From: Deltaproteobacteria bacterium
GTDB taxonomy: Bacteria; Desulfobacterota; Desulfobulbia; Desulfobulbales; Desulfurivibrionaceae
DNA: 64,000 nt
Assembly: GCA_013349285.1 (NCBI GenBank)
Contig: DUZU01000002.1
Coordinates: forward strand, 1 to 64,000
Reading direction: 5' to 3'
Below are positions 143 through 5,953 of this stretch, piece after piece; the first letter of the stretch is position 1; each line of letters opens with the position of its first letter. A model generated the notes under the pieces. That model saw nothing but the letters and a program-made list of their open reading frames with translations. It did not search any database and had not been told where the DNA came from. Both the position numbers and the translations under genes were made by a program.

Positions 143-1486
143 CTAAAAACTTCTGGCAATATTGAGCGAAACGACTTTTCGGGTATAGTCATAACCCGCC
201 ATATCGGAGTCATTGTCGGTGTACTGATACTCAAGGATCGCATCCCATTTCCCGCTCAGCCCGTAAGTCGCCTTTGCGGTTGAAATGGCCCTTTTATCCT
301 CCCGTTTAGCCCCTGTCCCATAGTCATAATCGCTGATTCTGTACTTTATGCCGCCGAAGAGATTTAACCGGGCAAACGGTGTATAACTCACCCCCGCCTT
401 AACCTGATGCCGGCGGGCGGAATAGTCGTCGTCATCCCGATCATTAAGCTCCAAAAGATAACCAAGAATGAGGCGAAATCCTTTTATTTTTGAGGAGGTA
501 TCCACCTCAAATCGCTGGCGCCAGCCGTTGAGGTAGCGATATTGCGAATCAAGGAAATCAAGATAGCTCAACCGGTAGCCCAGGTTGAGTCTGGTCCGGC
601 CGGCCAGGTATTTTTTCAGCTGCAGGTTAACCGATGGAATCTGCTCAAAGTTTTTGCCGTCCTGGGCCAGGTAGCTGTAATCAACTCCGGACTCCAACTG
701 CCAATTGTTGCCGACCGGCATCGTATGAAACAATCCGGCGGTGATCATCCCCAGGTCATACTCGACGAGATCGAAATATTTTTGATAATAAAGGGTGCCT
801 CTGGCCTGGAGGTTCTTGGTGAAAGTCGATTGAGGCAGGCTTGATTTGAAGTAAAAGAGAGCTTCGGCATAGCAATCGCCCTGGCCGCTGGTTGTGCTCG
901 TATCGGATGCCAGTTCGGCATTGTCATCATGGCCGAAGCCGGCGGAGATATATTTAGCAGCTGCCATGTGGGTGGCTTCATTGCTCGCGCCCATACGTTG
1001 AAGCGCGCTGGAGGCCAAGGTTTGCAGTTTGTCGTCATCAGTGAGGTTAAGGGCTTGGGTAAACCACTCTTTAGCCTCGGGCTGCTTATTTTCCTTAAGG
1101 GAAACAAGGCCCAGATTATAAAAGGCGATTGGCCGCATCTGAGCTGATTCGGCTGTTTTCAAAAAAGCCTGGCGGGAGATGGGATACTGCCCTTCCTTGA
1201 AAGCGCAAACCCCGATATTATAATAGAGCGAGGGTCGGTTGTCGCCGGCCTTTTCCGCCTGTTGGAAACAGGCAAGCGCCCGGGCAAAGTCCTTGGCCCG
1301 ATAATAGCGGACGCCCTCGGCAAACAGGGTTGAGGTGGTCGGGTTGGTGGCTTTTTCCGCCGCCATAACCCAGGAATTGTTATAGTCAGTCATCAGGCAA
1401 CAGACTGCGATCATTATGATTATAAGCCGGTATCTCATGGGGTTAAGCATCGTAGGTGATGATTTAAACGCAAAAAAGCCGTCCAT
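143..1486 (-). CDS. Secreted TPR protein with C-terminal outer-membrane beta-barrel
   Basis: The protein has up to 447 residues. A hydrophobic signal sequence lies at about residues 17-43 (MRYRLIIIMIAV...VMAAEK). Tetratricopeptide-type helices follow at about 50-165, with motifs such as ALACFQQAEKAGD and SLYYNIGVCAFKEGQY. From about 200 to the end it alternates short polar and aromatic strands and terminates in Phe (NIARSF), the usual C-terminal signature for BAM-inserted outer-membrane proteins. I infer a periplasmic TPR domain and an outer-membrane barrel. The layout recalls SLAM-type lipoprotein exporters, but the barrel is small and I cannot assign it. No candidate start has a good Shine-Dalgarno sequence; Met17 (base 1438) fits the signal peptide better than Met1. 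It is the last gene of the run sigma, anti-sigma, 114-residue protein, TPR-barrel. Confidence 0.7.
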   Translation of the reverse strand: MDGFFAFKSSPTMLNPMRYRLIIIMIAVCCLMTDYNNSWVMAAEKATNPTTSTLFAEGVRYYRAKDFARALACFQQAEKAGDNRPSLYYNIGVCAFKEGQYPISRQAFLKTAESAQMRPIAFYNLGLVSLKENKQPEAKEWFTQALNLTDDDKLQTLASSALQRMGASNEATHMAAAKYISAGFGHDDNAELASDTSTTSGQGDCYAEALFYFKSSLPQSTFTKNLQARGTLYYQKYFDLVEYDLGMITAGLFHTMPVGNNWQLESGVDYSYLAQDGKNFEQIPSVNLQLKKYLAGRTRLNLGYRLSYLDFLDSQYRYLNGWRQRFEVDTSSKIKGFRLILGYLLELNDRDDDDYSARRHQVKAGVSYTPFARLNLFGGIKYRISDYDYGTGAKREDKRAISTAKATYGLSGKWDAILEYQYTDNDSDMAGYDYTRKVVSLNIARSF

Positions 1487-1534
1487 TTAAAGTTGCTTAA
1501 ATGGGCAGCCTGCTAGTTATTATTTGTTTTGTTG

Positions 1535-1879
1535 TTAATCCGCTTTGGGGCCTGGTCCCGGTTTTTCGTAGCGTGGTGAATCGGAACTGAATGGAGTTTC
1601 TATCTCAACGCTTTTTTCAAAGGATTCTTTGGTCGGCCCATTGTCACCGGCGTCCATGCCGATTCTTTCCTGCTCCTGATGTTGAAATTCTTCTCTTTCC
1701 CTGAGTTGAAAGGGCAGCTCGATATTATTGGTTATTTCCTTGGAATTTTCGACATCGGCTCCGATTATCTCCATGGTAATATCCAGGTCGTCGAGATTAT
1801 CGGCCGCCAGGGCCGGAGTCATGGCGCCGGCTGAATAGAGCAAGGTTACAATAACAAGTATAATTAGGTTATTCTTCAT
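1535..1879 (-). CDS. Small secreted acidic protein of unknown function
   Basis: The gene encodes 114 residues and I do not recognise a family. Residues 1-25 form a clear Sec signal peptide (MKNNLIILVIVTLLYSAGAM, cleavage probably after ALA at about 25). The mature part of about 89 residues is acidic and rich in Glu, Asp, Gln and Pro, has no Cys, and ends with a Pro-Gly-rich tail (EKPGPGPKAD). It looks largely unstructured. AAGGAAAA lies just upstream of the ATG as a ribosome-binding site, which supports real translation. It sits between the anti-sigma gene and the TPR-barrel gene on the same strand, 70 bases from the former and 48 from the latter. It could be a periplasmic signal, a chaperone or cargo of the TPR-barrel protein; the sequence does not decide. 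Confidence 0.6.
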   Translation of the reverse strand: MKNNLIILVIVTLLYSAGAMTPALAADNLDDLDITMEIIGADVENSKEITNNIELPFQLREREEFQHQEQERIGMDAGDNGPTKESFEKSVEIETPFSSDSPRYEKPGPGPKAD

Positions 1880-1949
1880 TTAATTTTCCTTAAAAAGCCA
1901 TATGTAGGTAACAGGCAGCCATTCGAACTAATCTTAATAACATATGTAA

Positions 1950-2627
1950 TTAGACAAGGTGCAAGGTTTTATCCGCTGAGGTGGTCTGCCTGTCCCTGTT
2001 TATCTGCATTTGAAACTGCAGTTCCTTGCGCCGGTTAAGATGATCTATTCTGGTTGTCACCGAAACGAGTCCTTCCTTGGTGCCGACCAGAGGGATGGTG
2101 AGCAGATTGTTACCCTGTGACAAGTTGGCTATCCAGGAAATCTCTCTTTTTTCAGGATAACCGGCCAAGGCGATCTGCTCGGGCAGCATTATGGTGATCG
2201 TCGCATTTTCAAGATTTCGCGGTGATGTTACCAAGAGTTTCACCCTCTTGGTTTGGCTCAAGGTCAGGGTTGTTCTGCCGGCCACCTCATCCTTTGCCGG
2301 TAGATGGCTGTGCTTTGCGATGCCGAGATAGATAAACATCACAAAAACCGCCGCAATGGCCCCGCCGATCATGGTTAGACGATTGGCCCGCCCCTGCTGT
2401 CGCGTATGTTGCTGGTAAACGGATTGGAAAATATTGGCTGAAAATTCAGCAGACATGGCCGGGGAGCTTAGCCCTTTTAGTTTTTTTCTGAAGGCCGCCT
2501 CACGGCTGTATCGGCCGGAACACTTTTCGCAGCTAAGGAGATGGCTTTCGATCACCTTTCCTTCATAGTTTGTCAGTAAGTTGTCGAAATAATCATCAAG
2601 TAGTTCGCAAACTTTTTTACATTCCAT
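1950..2627 (-). CDS. Membrane-anchored zinc-finger anti-sigma factor
   Basis: This protein of 225 residues has an N-terminal zf-HC2/ZAS domain with the motif HLLSCEKC at about residues 28-35. One membrane segment follows at about 85-105 (LTMIGGAIAAVFVMFIYLGI). The remaining 120 residues would be periplasmic and look like an all-beta domain. Such proteins bind and hold an ECF sigma factor until an envelope signal releases it. I prefer the ATG at 2627 because GAAGAG precedes it at good spacing and it overlaps the sigma gene by 11 bases, so translation is probably coupled. An upstream in-frame ATG at 2642 has only an A-run before it. The regulated partner is almost certainly the adjacent sigma factor. 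Confidence 0.85.
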   Translation of the reverse strand: MECKKVCELLDDYFDNLLTNYEGKVIESHLLSCEKCSGRYSREAAFRKKLKGLSSPAMSAEFSANIFQSVYQQHTRQQGRANRLTMIGGAIAAVFVMFIYLGIAKHSHLPAKDEVAGRTTLTLSQTKRVKLLVTSPRNLENATITIMLPEQIALAGYPEKREISWIANLSQGNNLLTIPLVGTKEGLVSVTTRIDHLNRRKELQFQMQINRDRQTTSADKTLHLV

Positions 2628-3201
2628 AAGGAAGCTCTTCATTTTTTTTGTACAGTTTATCTCTTAAGGTCGCCCTAGCCCGATGTAGTCGGGATTTCAA
2701 GGTGCCTATCGGTGTTTCAAGTAACGCTACCAGTTCGAGCAGGGTGTACCCCTCCATATCATGCAACACGCATACTGCCCGCTGTTTTGGGTTGAGTGCC
2801 TTCAGGGCGGCATGGATTTGCCGGTTTACTATTTTACTTTCCCACACCTCGGCGGGACCCGGTTCGGGTGAGGATATAACCTCAAGGTAATCATAGTCAT
2901 CTTGAGCATGGTTGCTCGTCTTTAAAAGTTTTAAGGGCGAGCGCCAAAATTTGCGTTGCTGATCGATAAAAGTTCGGTAAAGCACCTTAGCCAACCAGGC
3001 CTTCAGGTTGCTTATCTCTGTAATATCGTTTTTTTTGAGGTATGCCTTAACCATCACCTCCTGCACCAGATCTTCAGCGTCCGCTTCCGATGCGGTAAAG
3101 CGGTAAGCAAGCCGATACATATTATCAAGGTGAGGTCGAATGATGTCTTCGAAATCCTCGACCCCTTCTTTACTGTTGATTAAGGTCAGTACTGATTCCA
3201 T
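2617..3201 (-). CDS. ECF-family RNA polymerase sigma factor
   Basis: The 194-residue protein has the two-domain layout of extracytoplasmic-function sigma factors. Region 2 lies at about residues 20-90, with DAEDLVQEVMVKAY and the aromatic core LKAWLAKVLYRTFIDQQR. Region 4 lies at about 130-185, with LNPKQRAVCVLHDMEGYTL and the recognition helix TPIGTLKSRLHRARATL. There is no region 1 or 3. It heads an apparent operon with its anti-sigma factor, whose start overlaps the sigma stop codon. No Shine-Dalgarno sequence precedes the ATG, and an ECF-like promoter lies about 13 bases upstream, so the transcript may be almost leaderless. It belongs to the RpoE-like group; the signal is unknown, but the downstream secreted and outer-membrane genes suggest an envelope response. 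Confidence 0.93.
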   Translation of the reverse strand: MESVLTLINSKEGVEDFEDIIRPHLDNMYRLAYRFTASEADAEDLVQEVMVKAYLKKNDITEISNLKAWLAKVLYRTFIDQQRKFWRSPLKLLKTSNHAQDDYDYLEVISSPEPGPAEVWESKIVNRQIHAALKALNPKQRAVCVLHDMEGYTLLELVALLETPIGTLKSRLHRARATLRDKLYKKNEELPYGM

Positions 3202-3213
3202 TTAACTTAAATA

Positions 3214-3238
3214 ACGTTTTTCTCTAAGATATGGTTCC
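3214..3238 (-). promoter_or_regulatory. Candidate ECF-type promoter of the sigma operon
   Basis: On the minus strand GGAAC (bases 3238-3234), a 17-base spacer and CGT (3216-3214) lie 13 bases before the sigma-factor ATG. GGAAC with a spacer of 16-17 and CGT is the usual ECF promoter pattern, so autoregulation is a reasonable inference. Transcription would start around 3205-3207, giving a leader of only a few bases. The match is by eye. Confidence 0.45.
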
Positions 3239-3333
3239 ATAAAAATTAAGATTATTACCAAAAAACAAAGAAAGTTGTTTCAGGGAATAATCTTAACCTT
3301 TATGAGGTTGCGCGGAACACGGCAAATTGACGG

Positions 3334-3362
3334 AGATCGGCAGGGGCGGATCCTGCCGATCT
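3334..3362. terminator. 11-bp perfect hairpin downstream of cobA-hemD
   Basis: AGATCGGCAGG at 3334-3344 pairs perfectly with CCTGCCGATCT at 3352-3362 around a 7-base loop. It lies 35 bases past the cobA-hemD stop. No U-tract follows on either strand, so it may be a weak terminator or an mRNA 3'-end stabiliser rather than a classical intrinsic terminator. Confidence 0.4.
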
Positions 3363-3396
3363 TTCGAGGAAAATCAAGCTTGGGGGTTACGGGGCA

Positions 3397-4947
3397 TTAC
3401 TTGGCGTAATAATCTAAAATGCTCTCCACCATTTCCGGGATAGTGAAGATCTCCGGCTGGACATCAATCTTCAACCCCTTTTTCTCAGCGGTTTTGGCGG
3501 TAATCGGCCCGATACAGGCAAGGGCGACGTTATTGAGCAGCCTGCCCTTGTTTTCTTCCCTGATCATCTCAATAAAATTGCTGACGGTGGAAGAGCTGGT
3601 AAAGGTAACCATGTCGATTCGGCCCGATTCCAGCTCGGCGACTATCTTCTCATAGCCCTTTGGTTGCACGTTTTGATAAACAGGCACCACCGTAACATCG
3701 GCGCCATGCTGCGCCAAGGTTTCCGGTACAATCTCCCTTGCTTTTTTGGCGCGGGGGATAAGCACTTTTTTGCCATTGATGCCCTGGTCGATAAGGCTCT
3801 TGGCCAGCCCGTCCCCGGTGTATTCCGCGGGGATGAGATCGGCTATCACCCCGTATTCCTTCAGCACCTCGGCGGTTGCCTCCCCCACCACCGCGATTTT
3901 TTGGCCGTGCAAGGCTCGGGTGTCCAGGCCATTGGCGTTCATCCGCTCAAAGAAGAAACGGATGCCGTTGATGCTTGAAAATACAATCCAGTGGTAATCG
4001 GCAATCTCGGTCAGGGCCTTATCCAGCGGCTCCCAGCTATCCGGCGGCTCGATGGCGATGGTGGCGCCTTCAACGCAGTCAGCGCCCTGGTCTTCCAGCA
4101 AGCGCACCAGCTCACTGGCCTGCTCCCTGGTTCTGGTCACCAGGATGCGTTTGCCGAAAAGCGGCCTTTTTTCAAACCAGTTGATTTTTTCCCGCAGATT
4201 GACGACCTCGCCCACCACCACCAGGGCCGGCGGGGTAATCCCCCCTTCCTTAACCACCTCGGCGATGTTGGCCAGGGTGCCGACCACTGATTTCTGGGCA
4301 GGGGTCGAGGCCCAGCGCACCACGGCAACCGGGGTTTGCGGATCACGGCCGTTGGCGATCAGATTCTTGGAGATGGAGGGCAGGTTCTTGATCCCCATGT
4401 AGAAAACCAGGGTGCCGATGCCGGTGGAAATCTTATCCCAGGCGATACTGCTGCTTTCCTTGGTCGGATCTTCATGGCCGGTGATAAAGGCGACGGAGGC
4501 GGTATAACCGCGATGGGTAATGGGAACGCCCGCATAGGTTGCCGCCGCGGTTGCCGAGGTAACGCCGGGCACCACCTCGAAACTGATGCCCGCGTCGACC
4601 AGTTCTTCAATCTCTTCCCCGCCGCGACCGAAGATAAATGGGTCGCCGCCCTTGAGGCGAACCACGATTTTCCCGGCCCTGGCATGATCAACCAGCATCT
4701 GGTTGATTTCTTCCTGGGTATGGGCGTGGCAGACTCCGCCCTTTTTGCCGGCATAGATAAACTCAGCCTCTTTGGGCACATATTTAAGAAGCTTGGGGCT
4801 GGCCAGATAATCATAGACAACCACTTCCGCCCTTTTTAAAAGTTCCAGACCCTTAACCGTGATTAAGGTCGGGTCGCCGGGGCCGGCGCCGATCAGGTAA
4901 ACTTTGCCCTTGGATTTCATATTGCTGTTTTTTGCTGTTGCATTCAT
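3397..4947 (-). CDS. cobA-hemD: Uroporphyrinogen-III C-methyltransferase / uroporphyrinogen-III synthase fusion
   Basis: This bifunctional cytoplasmic enzyme of about 516 residues joins two tetrapyrrole activities. The N-terminal half (about residues 10-255) is the SAM-dependent methyltransferase that makes precorrin-2, with [20 protein letters not shown], the [17 protein letters not shown] loop and [20 protein letters not shown]. The C-terminal half (about 265-516) is uroporphyrinogen-III synthase, starting [19 protein letters not shown] and containing [12 protein letters not shown]. Together with hemC upstream it carries porphobilinogen to precorrin-2, the branch point to siroheme and cobalamin. 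In sulfate reducers siroheme also feeds the alternative haem pathway. The ATG at 4947 is chosen; a TTG at 4959 and an ATG at 4920, closest to the usual family start, are alternatives, and none has a clear ribosome-binding site. Confidence 0.95.
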
Positions 4948-4960
4948 GTTTATACTCAAT

Positions 4961-4987
4961 AAAAAAACCGGCTCAGCCGGTTTTTTT
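4961..4987 (-). terminator. Intrinsic terminator between hemC and cobA-hemD
   Basis: A 12-bp stem (seven A:T plus CCGGC:GCCGG) with loop TCA is followed by a U-tract. It starts 28 bases after the hemC stop and ends 13 bases before the cobA-hemD ATG. The symmetric A/T ends let it work on both strands. Its place inside a seemingly single operon suggests reduced read-through into cobA-hemD or a separate promoter. Confidence 0.75.
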
Positions 4988-5014
4988 TATCCCGTTGGTT
5001 TGATTCTTAAAAAA

Positions 5015-5953
5015 TTATTCCATATTCTGACCGTAAACCTCGGTCAGAATTTCTTTGCCGCCCATGGCCAGCAACTCTTCCGCCACTTGAATGCCAAGGG
5101 CGACAGGATCATCAGTCGGGCCGCTCATCGTTTTTTTCACAACCTGCCTGCCGTCAACCGAGGCAACCAAACCGGTCATCTGCAGGGTGTTTTCCGCGGA
5201 GAGGGTTGCAAATCCGGCAATGGGCACCTGGCAGCCGCCCTCCAGGCGATGGAGAAAGCCGCGTTCCGCCATAACCGCAAGAGCGGTTTCCCGATGGTCC
5301 ATAAACATCAGGCCGGCCAGCAATTCTTTATCCGCAATCCGCAACTCGATGCCCACCGCGCCCTGGGCTACGGCCGGCAGCATCTCTTCCTCGGTGAAAC
5401 AGGACTTGGCTCTTTCCCCCCATCCCAAGCGGTTGAGGCCGGCGGAAGCGAGGATAATGGCATCGTACTGGCCCTCATCAAGTTTGCGCAGCCGGGTGTC
5501 GAGATTGCCGCGCAGATCCTCAATCACCAGATCCGGCCGGATATTGGCCAGCTGGGATTTGCGTCTGAGGCTGCTGGTGCCCACCTTGGCTCCCTGGGGC
5601 AGATCCCGGCAGGTCGAGCAGCTGTTGGCGATAAAGGCATCAAAGGGGTTTTCACGTTTGGTGATAATGCCGATATGGAGGCCTTCCGGCAGCTCGGCCG
5701 GCACATCCTTCATGCTGTGTACGGCAATATCAACCTCGTGGCTGAGCATCGCCTCTTCCAGTTCCTTTACAAACAGCCCTTTTCCGCCCACTTTGGCAAG
5801 GGGCACATCAAGAATTTTATCACCCTTGGTTATGATCTTGACCAGTTCAACGGTAACCTCGGGATAACGCTCTTCAATCATGGATTTGATCCAGTTGGAC
5901 TGGGTCAAGGCGAGCAGGCTTCCTCTGGTGCCGATTTTAATGGTTTTTTGCAT
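5015..5953 (-). CDS. hemC: Porphobilinogen deaminase (hydroxymethylbilane synthase)
   Basis: The 312-residue protein polymerises four porphobilinogens into hydroxymethylbilane in the cytoplasm, the substrate of the HemD half encoded just downstream. Recognisable motifs are KIGTRGSLLALTQSNWI at the N-terminus, VDIAVHSMKDVPAELPEGL, the substrate-binding RRKSQLANIRPDL, and the dipyrromethane-cofactor cysteine in LEGGCQVPIAGFA at about residue 241. Length is normal for the family. AAGGAA precedes the ATG at good spacing. A strong hairpin terminator follows the gene, so expression may be partly uncoupled from cobA-hemD. Confidence 0.97.
   Translation of the reverse strand: MQKTIKIGTRGSLLALTQSNWIKSMIEERYPEVTVELVKIITKGDKILDVPLAKVGGKGLFVKELEEAMLSHEVDIAVHSMKDVPAELPEGLHIGIITKRENPFDAFIANSCSTCRDLPQGAKVGTSSLRRKSQLANIRPDLVIEDLRGNLDTRLRKLDEGQYDAIILASAGLNRLGWGERAKSCFTEEEMLPAVAQGAVGIELRIADKELLAGLMFMDHRETALAVMAERGFLHRLEGGCQVPIAGFATLSAENTLQMTGLVASVDGRQVVKKTMSGPTDDPVALGIQVAEELLAMGGKEILTEVYGQNME

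Follow-up and report, generated by a model that had tools for sequence, protein, structure and literature searches.

We analyzed a four-gene locus near the start of a 64,000-nucleotide stretch of DNA (hereafter, the window) from a bacterium of the Desulfurivibrionaceae (contig DUZU01000002.1, positions 1 to 64,000). Between positions 143 and 3201, on the minus strand, a gene for an extracytoplasmic function (ECF) sigma factor is followed by genes for a zf-HC2 anti-sigma factor, a small secreted protein and an outer-membrane protein that combines tetratricopeptide repeats (TPRs) with a beta-barrel. A preliminary description, made by reading the sequence, had listed these four genes in this order, and all four open reading frames are present at the positions it gave. 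The features are as follows.

3214..3238, minus strand: ECF promoter P1, GGAACCATATCTTAGAGAAAAACGT; the -35 box begins 37 bases upstream of the sigma ATG
2617..3201, minus strand: ECF sigma factor, 194 residues; Pfam Sigma70_r2 and Sigma70_r4_2 above cut-off, TIGR02937
1950..2642, minus strand: zf-HC2 anti-sigma factor, 230 residues; Pfam zf-HC2 above cut-off
1535..1879, minus strand: small secreted protein, 114 residues, acidic, with a signal peptide; member of a 64-member set
1712..1795, minus strand: conserved head of the mature small protein, residues 29-56, LDDLDITMEIIG...NNIELP; family alignment
1538..1711, minus strand: disordered charged tail of the small protein, residues 57-114, no Cys, net charge -6; composition
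143..1486, minus strand: TPR and 14-strand outer-membrane barrel protein, 447 residues; Pfam, AlphaFold2, Foldseek
983..1336, minus strand: periplasmic TPR domain, residues 51-168, seven helices; Pfam, AlphaFold2
149..958, minus strand: 14-strand barrel, residues 177-446, followed by the C-terminal Phe 447; AlphaFold2

The sigma and anti-sigma genes share 26 bases, and the true start of the barrel reading frame may be an in-frame ATG a few codons further in. The window begins at base 1 of its contig. Because the bases before position 143 resemble, by eye, the end of a convergent plus-strand gene, we consider that the operon itself is not cut.

The sigma factor contains sigma2 and sigma4 domains only (Sigma70_r2, 51 bits; Sigma70_r4_2, 43 bits) and scores 89 bits against the NCBIfam family TIGR02937 (sigma70-ECF), for which the cut-off is 42.9. 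As judged from sequence, it fits the canonical features of ECF sigma factors (PMC8103513): an anti-sigma gene is adjacent, and the promoter pattern and its conservation among related loci point to an AAC -35 box, a CGT -10 box and autoregulation. The anti-sigma factor matches zf-HC2 with 28 bits (cut-off 22.2), and the family alignment shows a conserved H and CxxC. A hydrophobic segment and the AlphaFold2 model place a transmembrane helix at about residues 91-109, and the periplasmic part is predicted to fold into an immunoglobulin-like (Ig-like) eight-strand sandwich (residues 121-215), with a predicted local distance difference test score (pLDDT) >90 across most of residues 131-210. The protein thus has the HC2 zinc finger, single transmembrane segment and periplasmic domain of a zf-HC2 membrane anti-sigma factor, the last of these close to the roughly 120 residues proposed earlier. 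A fold search with this domain retrieved only generic macroglobulin or Ig-like folds from the PDB, such as complement C3.

The fourth protein matches TPR_2 (48 bits) and BBP2_2 (29.3 bits, cut-off 23.7) in Pfam, the latter match covering profile positions 295-375 of 378 only, and its C-terminal residue is Phe. In the AlphaFold2 model (mean pLDDT 86, 13 sequences) seven TPR-type helices (residues 51-168) precede 14 strands (residues 177-446), so the C-terminal half of the 447-residue protein is predicted to be a barrel, as the preliminary description had supposed. Foldseek matches of the model in the PDB are headed by BcsC and include CymA and OmpG, and NCBIfam shows weak similarity to PEP-CTERM/EPS outer-membrane proteins.

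The small protein had been said to fit no known family. Pfam returns nothing for it up to E = 1, no NCBIfam family scores above its cut-off, and the RseB/MucB profiles of these databases do not match it. Among 97 genomes of the family and order, its relatives at E <1e-3 occur only in the same type of locus. We collected 64 members, of which 62 could be parsed; the head pattern itself served for the parsing, which is therefore a description and not a test of the head, and a few rows caught a neighboring stretch. Each parsed member has a hydrophobic signal-type N-terminus, then a head, then a tail. The head follows the motif [DE][VI]T[MIL]x[VIM][IVM]...IxLP or a similar ending, with the Thr present in 61 of 62. 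The tails span 41-240 residues, with medians of 30% D+E and 10% hydrophobic residues; none contains cysteine, and 55 of 62 carry a net negative charge.

The gene order is conserved. The 97 genomes were searched separately with the barrel protein, the anti-sigma factor and the small protein, and besides the window's own genome these were found in 10 (E <1e-40), 10 (E <1e-28) and 8 (E <1e-3) genomes, respectively. The three independent searches land on nearly all the same loci. Across about 60 sampled loci, at 25-40% identity, two distant groups, Desulfobulbales relatives and Gammaproteobacteria, share the order sigma, anti-sigma, small protein and barrel, and sigma orthologs stand first in all complete loci. 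Nearly all of the roughly 60 loci with sigma, anti-sigma and barrel genes have a small protein of like design between the last two, L238 aside. The preliminary description had made its proposal depend on such conservation, and the small protein and barrel genes do lie beside the sigma and anti-sigma genes in nearly every relative that we examined. Two loci (L041 and L042) have a convergent barrel gene, and the locus appears split across two contigs in genome G012. Two loci, L086 (genome G048) and L325, have sigma, anti-sigma and small protein genes and no adjacent barrel gene; both keep the head.

Assemblies of Desulfobulbaceae and Desulfurivibrio are among the carriers, as is an uncultured gammaproteobacterium. 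The barrel was found in 22 of 40 genomes of this gammaproteobacterium's order and in 41 of 369 (~11%) of its class. When the same 369 genomes were searched independently for the anti-sigma factor, 38 had it, 37 of them together with the barrel; one had the anti-sigma factor only, four the barrel only and 327 neither (Fisher p 4e-45). A phylum-wide search with an anti-sigma profile was swamped by unrelated zf-HC2 proteins, and only full-length matches were kept. Remote TPR-barrel homologs (L249-L253) were left out because no sigma or anti-sigma match lies nearby. As a side observation, L237 (positions 1899-4400, genome G509) has two extra genes between the small protein and the barrel, one of them membrane-phosphatase-like by eye.

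For 62 loci with all needed parts, we compared the charge density of the tail with the net charges of eight regions: the TPR domain, lumen-facing and outward strand residues, loops, the parts of the anti-sigma factor and the sigma factor. Lumen-facing residues were taken as the less hydrophobic parity of each strand in the AlphaFold2 model. The charge of the lumen runs opposite to that of the tail (rho -0.70, p 2e-10, n 62). The relation persists in phylogenetic independent contrasts on a sigma plus anti-sigma tree (r -0.50, p 3e-5), and after Bonferroni correction for the eight regions p is about 2e-4. A barrel tree in its place gives r -0.48, and Gammaproteobacteria alone give r -0.55 (p 4e-5). 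The D/E fraction of the tail correlates with the K/R count of the lumen (rho 0.77), and none of 300 random strand-parity controls reached the observed value. Before phylogenetic correction the TPR domain (rho -0.56), the extracellular loops (-0.52) and the anti-sigma periplasmic domain (-0.41) also vary with the tail; after correction these relations are not clear (p 0.09, p 0.12, and r -0.25 with p 0.05, respectively). The outward residues (corrected r +0.30), the sigma factor and the cytoplasmic part of the anti-sigma factor show no negative relation with the tail. We rejected proteome-wide acidity as a cause: it would give tail and lumen the same sign, and neither the outward residues nor sigma follow it.

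Some loci outside the fit can be compared with it. L328 has a basic tail (+0.33 per residue), for which the fit predicts a lumen charge of about -6; the observed value is -8, the most acidic lumen of all, the 62 fitted values all being -5 or higher. For L326 (tail -0.15) the prediction is about +6 and the observation +16, which is in the same direction and high (residual standard deviation 4.0). The tails of L325 (+0.03) and L086 (+0.10), the two loci without an adjacent barrel gene, are neutral to slightly basic. The relation between tail and lumen points to physical contact of the small protein with the barrel, and lends independent support to the earlier idea that the small protein could be a cargo, ligand or signal for the barrel.

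Candidate promoters would place these genes under the sigma factor. In many loci, the window's included, GGAACC(A/T)T-N14-CGT stands about 35 bases before the sigma start codon, and in many a second copy lies inside the 3' end of the sigma gene, usually some 48 bases ahead of the anti-sigma start. Across 63 loci (702 kb), this strict pattern precedes the sigma gene in 28, the anti-sigma gene in 31, at least one of them in 41 and both in 18; for a looser pattern, G(G/A)AAC(C/T)-N16-CGT, the first three counts are 33, 51 and 54. The remainder of these 702 kb holds 7 strict sites on both strands and one match to the reversed pattern. Coding constraint was rejected as a cause of the internal copy because the motif falls in different sigma reading frames in the few loci worked out by hand. 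Of the present results, the promoter layout is the one that bears on the earlier suggestion that the sigma and anti-sigma pair may sense the state of the barrel or envelope.

We sought further members of the regulon by searching genomes for the pattern. The strict pattern occurs five times in the window's genome, compared with two for a control pattern. One of the five sites precedes this operon, three precede other small, charged secreted proteins, and the last (C13:49322), which falls within another gene, we attribute to chance. At L260:3284-4768 (contig C21), the site precedes a secreted charged protein of 107 residues, followed by a second barrel gene that is TPR-less and has one in-frame TAA. 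The other two sites precede secreted low-complexity proteins (71 and 142 residues): a Gly-rich one with QDRDRD stretches at L262:3026-3515 (contig C20) and the 71-residue one, with QKTRTQ, at L261:3163-3450 (contig C42). Gly-rich secreted proteins with such a site also diverge from sigma in genomes G028 and G091. In 20 locus-carrying genomes, the strict pattern is found mostly at the locus.

Two single cases are recorded separately. HtrA/DegP is a classical envelope-stress target, and in G048, whose locus has no adjacent barrel gene, the strict pattern stands about 163 bases before a gene that by eye resembles this protease (L265, contig C36). At L177:3139-5924 (genome G461), a promoter is followed in a row by a secreted protein rich in Ser and Pro that has a twin-arginine-like signal, a 416-residue protein with a P-loop (HprK-like by eye) and a TPR-less barrel.

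We read the locus as a module in which the sigma factor switches on a disordered secreted protein and a barrel that conducts it or is plugged by it, with feedback through the anti-sigma factor; we put the probability of this reading at roughly 0.5. The gene order, predicted folds, promoter layout and charge matching were computed here; the direction of transport, a contact between head and sensor domain, and a signal are inferences. The zf-HC2 anti-sigma factor would hold the ECF sigma factor. Once freed, sigma would transcribe from GGAACCTTTT-N12-CGT promoters, the first of them before its own gene. In most relatives, the second promoter in the 3' end of the sigma gene would drive the anti-sigma, small protein and barrel genes, so that the anti-sigma factor would supply negative feedback and the other two the output. 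After export of the small protein to the periplasm, its disordered charged tail would engage the oppositely charged lumen of the 14-strand barrel, the TPR domain serving as periplasmic receptor. The barrel probably carries the small protein or is plugged by it. By analogy with TPR-barrel (type 11) export, it would most likely be an outer-membrane conduit with the small protein as its cargo, plugging of the lumen being the near alternative; export is favored because of the TPR adaptor and the very variable tail length. Because the head is kept where no barrel gene is adjacent, it is our first candidate for the part that contacts the sensor domain of the anti-sigma factor, and the module could in this way report whether the barrel works; since L326 keeps the head without sigma and anti-sigma genes, we say only that the head may have this role. 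A trans-envelope device, with the tail in or through the matched lumen and the head reading to the anti-sigma factor, by which the cell would gauge its outer-membrane export capacity and adjust sigma, is a speculative extension that we consider rather unlikely.

Several points weigh against the conduit-or-plug module. The charge relation is not seen in the Desulfobulbales loci alone, the window's own group (n 12; rho -0.19, p 0.56), and lumen residues were assigned by hydrophobicity parity from a single predicted model. A matched lumen is compatible with export and with plugging alike. Neither the strict nor the loose pattern reveals a second promoter in the window, and the strict-pattern survey of other genomes gave few shared targets outside the locus. 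Two gammaproteobacterial loci separate the parts: L326 has the barrel and the small protein without adjacent sigma and anti-sigma genes, and L327 has the barrel alone.

The small protein gene directly follows the anti-sigma gene, as that of RseB does, and the protein might mainly regulate the anti-sigma factor from the periplasm, its head binding the Ig-like domain and the barrel being one target among several. The persistence of the head in L086 and L325 and the weak relation between the charge of the tail and that of the anti-sigma periplasmic domain are in keeping with this. We hold such a role to be doubtful, as the lumen of the barrel is the strongest charge partner of the tail, L326 has a head beside a barrel in the absence of both regulators, and the protein, mostly disordered, is much smaller than RseB. 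Plugging without export has in its favor that charge matching predicts occupancy of the lumen, not transport, and that the porins CymA and OmpG are among the structural matches. The tail would then plug or gate a porin-like barrel for a small solute, with the protein staying in the periplasm or lumen. This seems unlikely to us: tails reach lengths beyond a plug's need, the charge of the lumen is not tracked by tail length, and TPR adaptors typically belong to export barrels.

In a further reading, which we consider quite improbable, an envelope-stress sigma factor would yield the secreted proteins as protective, hydrophilin-like products in their own right, and the barrel would handle a different polymer, for instance an exopolysaccharide. 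The other targets in the genome are likewise small, secreted and of low complexity, the cellulose exporter BcsC is the best PDB match of the barrel, and the PEP-CTERM/EPS similarity points the same way. Such a division of labor would not predict charge matching between tail and lumen, however, and the loci listed in full show no polysaccharide genes next to the module.

The nearest known systems share parts of this design. In the type 11 secretion system (T11SS)/SLAM family (DUF560, PF04575; NilB, HrpB, Slam1/2), as in the module, one outer-membrane protein has an N-terminal periplasmic TPR domain and an adjacent gene encodes the secreted partner (PMC8406197). The TPR domain of NilB has about 140 residues, and T11SS cargo proteins share a C-terminal eight-stranded barrel (PMC8406197). 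The comparison with SLAM made in the preliminary description holds for architecture, as the AlphaFold2 model has the TPR domain and 14-strand barrel of the family. It does not extend to membership: the window's barrel protein has no match to PF04575 or the SLAM TPR profile up to E = 1 in Pfam, the best SLAM TPR score in a relative is 19.8 bits (cut-off 35.2), and the small protein has, in place of the eight-stranded cargo barrel (TbpB_B_D), a polar cysteine-free tail without Pfam match. Because profile membership and cargo fold both proved negative, we do not file the module under T11SS/SLAM, from which it also differs in its disordered partner and its coupling to a sigma/anti-sigma pair.

The exopolysaccharide exporters BcsC, PgaA and PelB also join TPRs to a barrel, but the window protein has 14 strands and four or fewer TPRs, and glycosyltransferase genes were not seen at the module loci listed in full. 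The rpoE-rseA-rseB-rseC operon has an ECF sigma factor, a membrane anti-sigma factor and a periplasmic protein in the same order; the window differs in having a zf-HC2 anti-sigma factor with an Ig-like domain, a small disordered protein for RseB, and a dedicated barrel. Pfam BBP2_2 (PF10082, putative beta-barrel porin 2) describes the barrel half above its curated cut-off, to which the window protein adds the TPR domain. SigW and RsiW of Bacillus subtilis differ from the module in anti-sigma class and targets. The module's promoter resembles SigW-type promoters, whose -35 target is ATTGAAACCTTT, and the canonical ECF boxes are AAC and CGT (PMC8103513). We found no description of the four-gene module in the literature searched.

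If our reading is correct, the module would add, beyond the SLAM family, an outer-membrane TPR-barrel with a partner that is disordered instead of a folded barrel protein, and a case in which lumen and cargo co-evolve in charge. It would also give a function to one of many uncharacterized ECF sigma systems, in a field where 102 of 157 ECF groups are without mechanistic insight (PMC8103513). Given its presence in ~11% of the sampled gammaproteobacterial genomes, a cultivable host should exist.

Upstream of the module on the same strand, at positions 3397-5953 of the window, the neighboring genes resemble by eye a uroporphyrinogen methyltransferase/synthase fusion and a hydroxymethylbilane synthase of the heme pathway.

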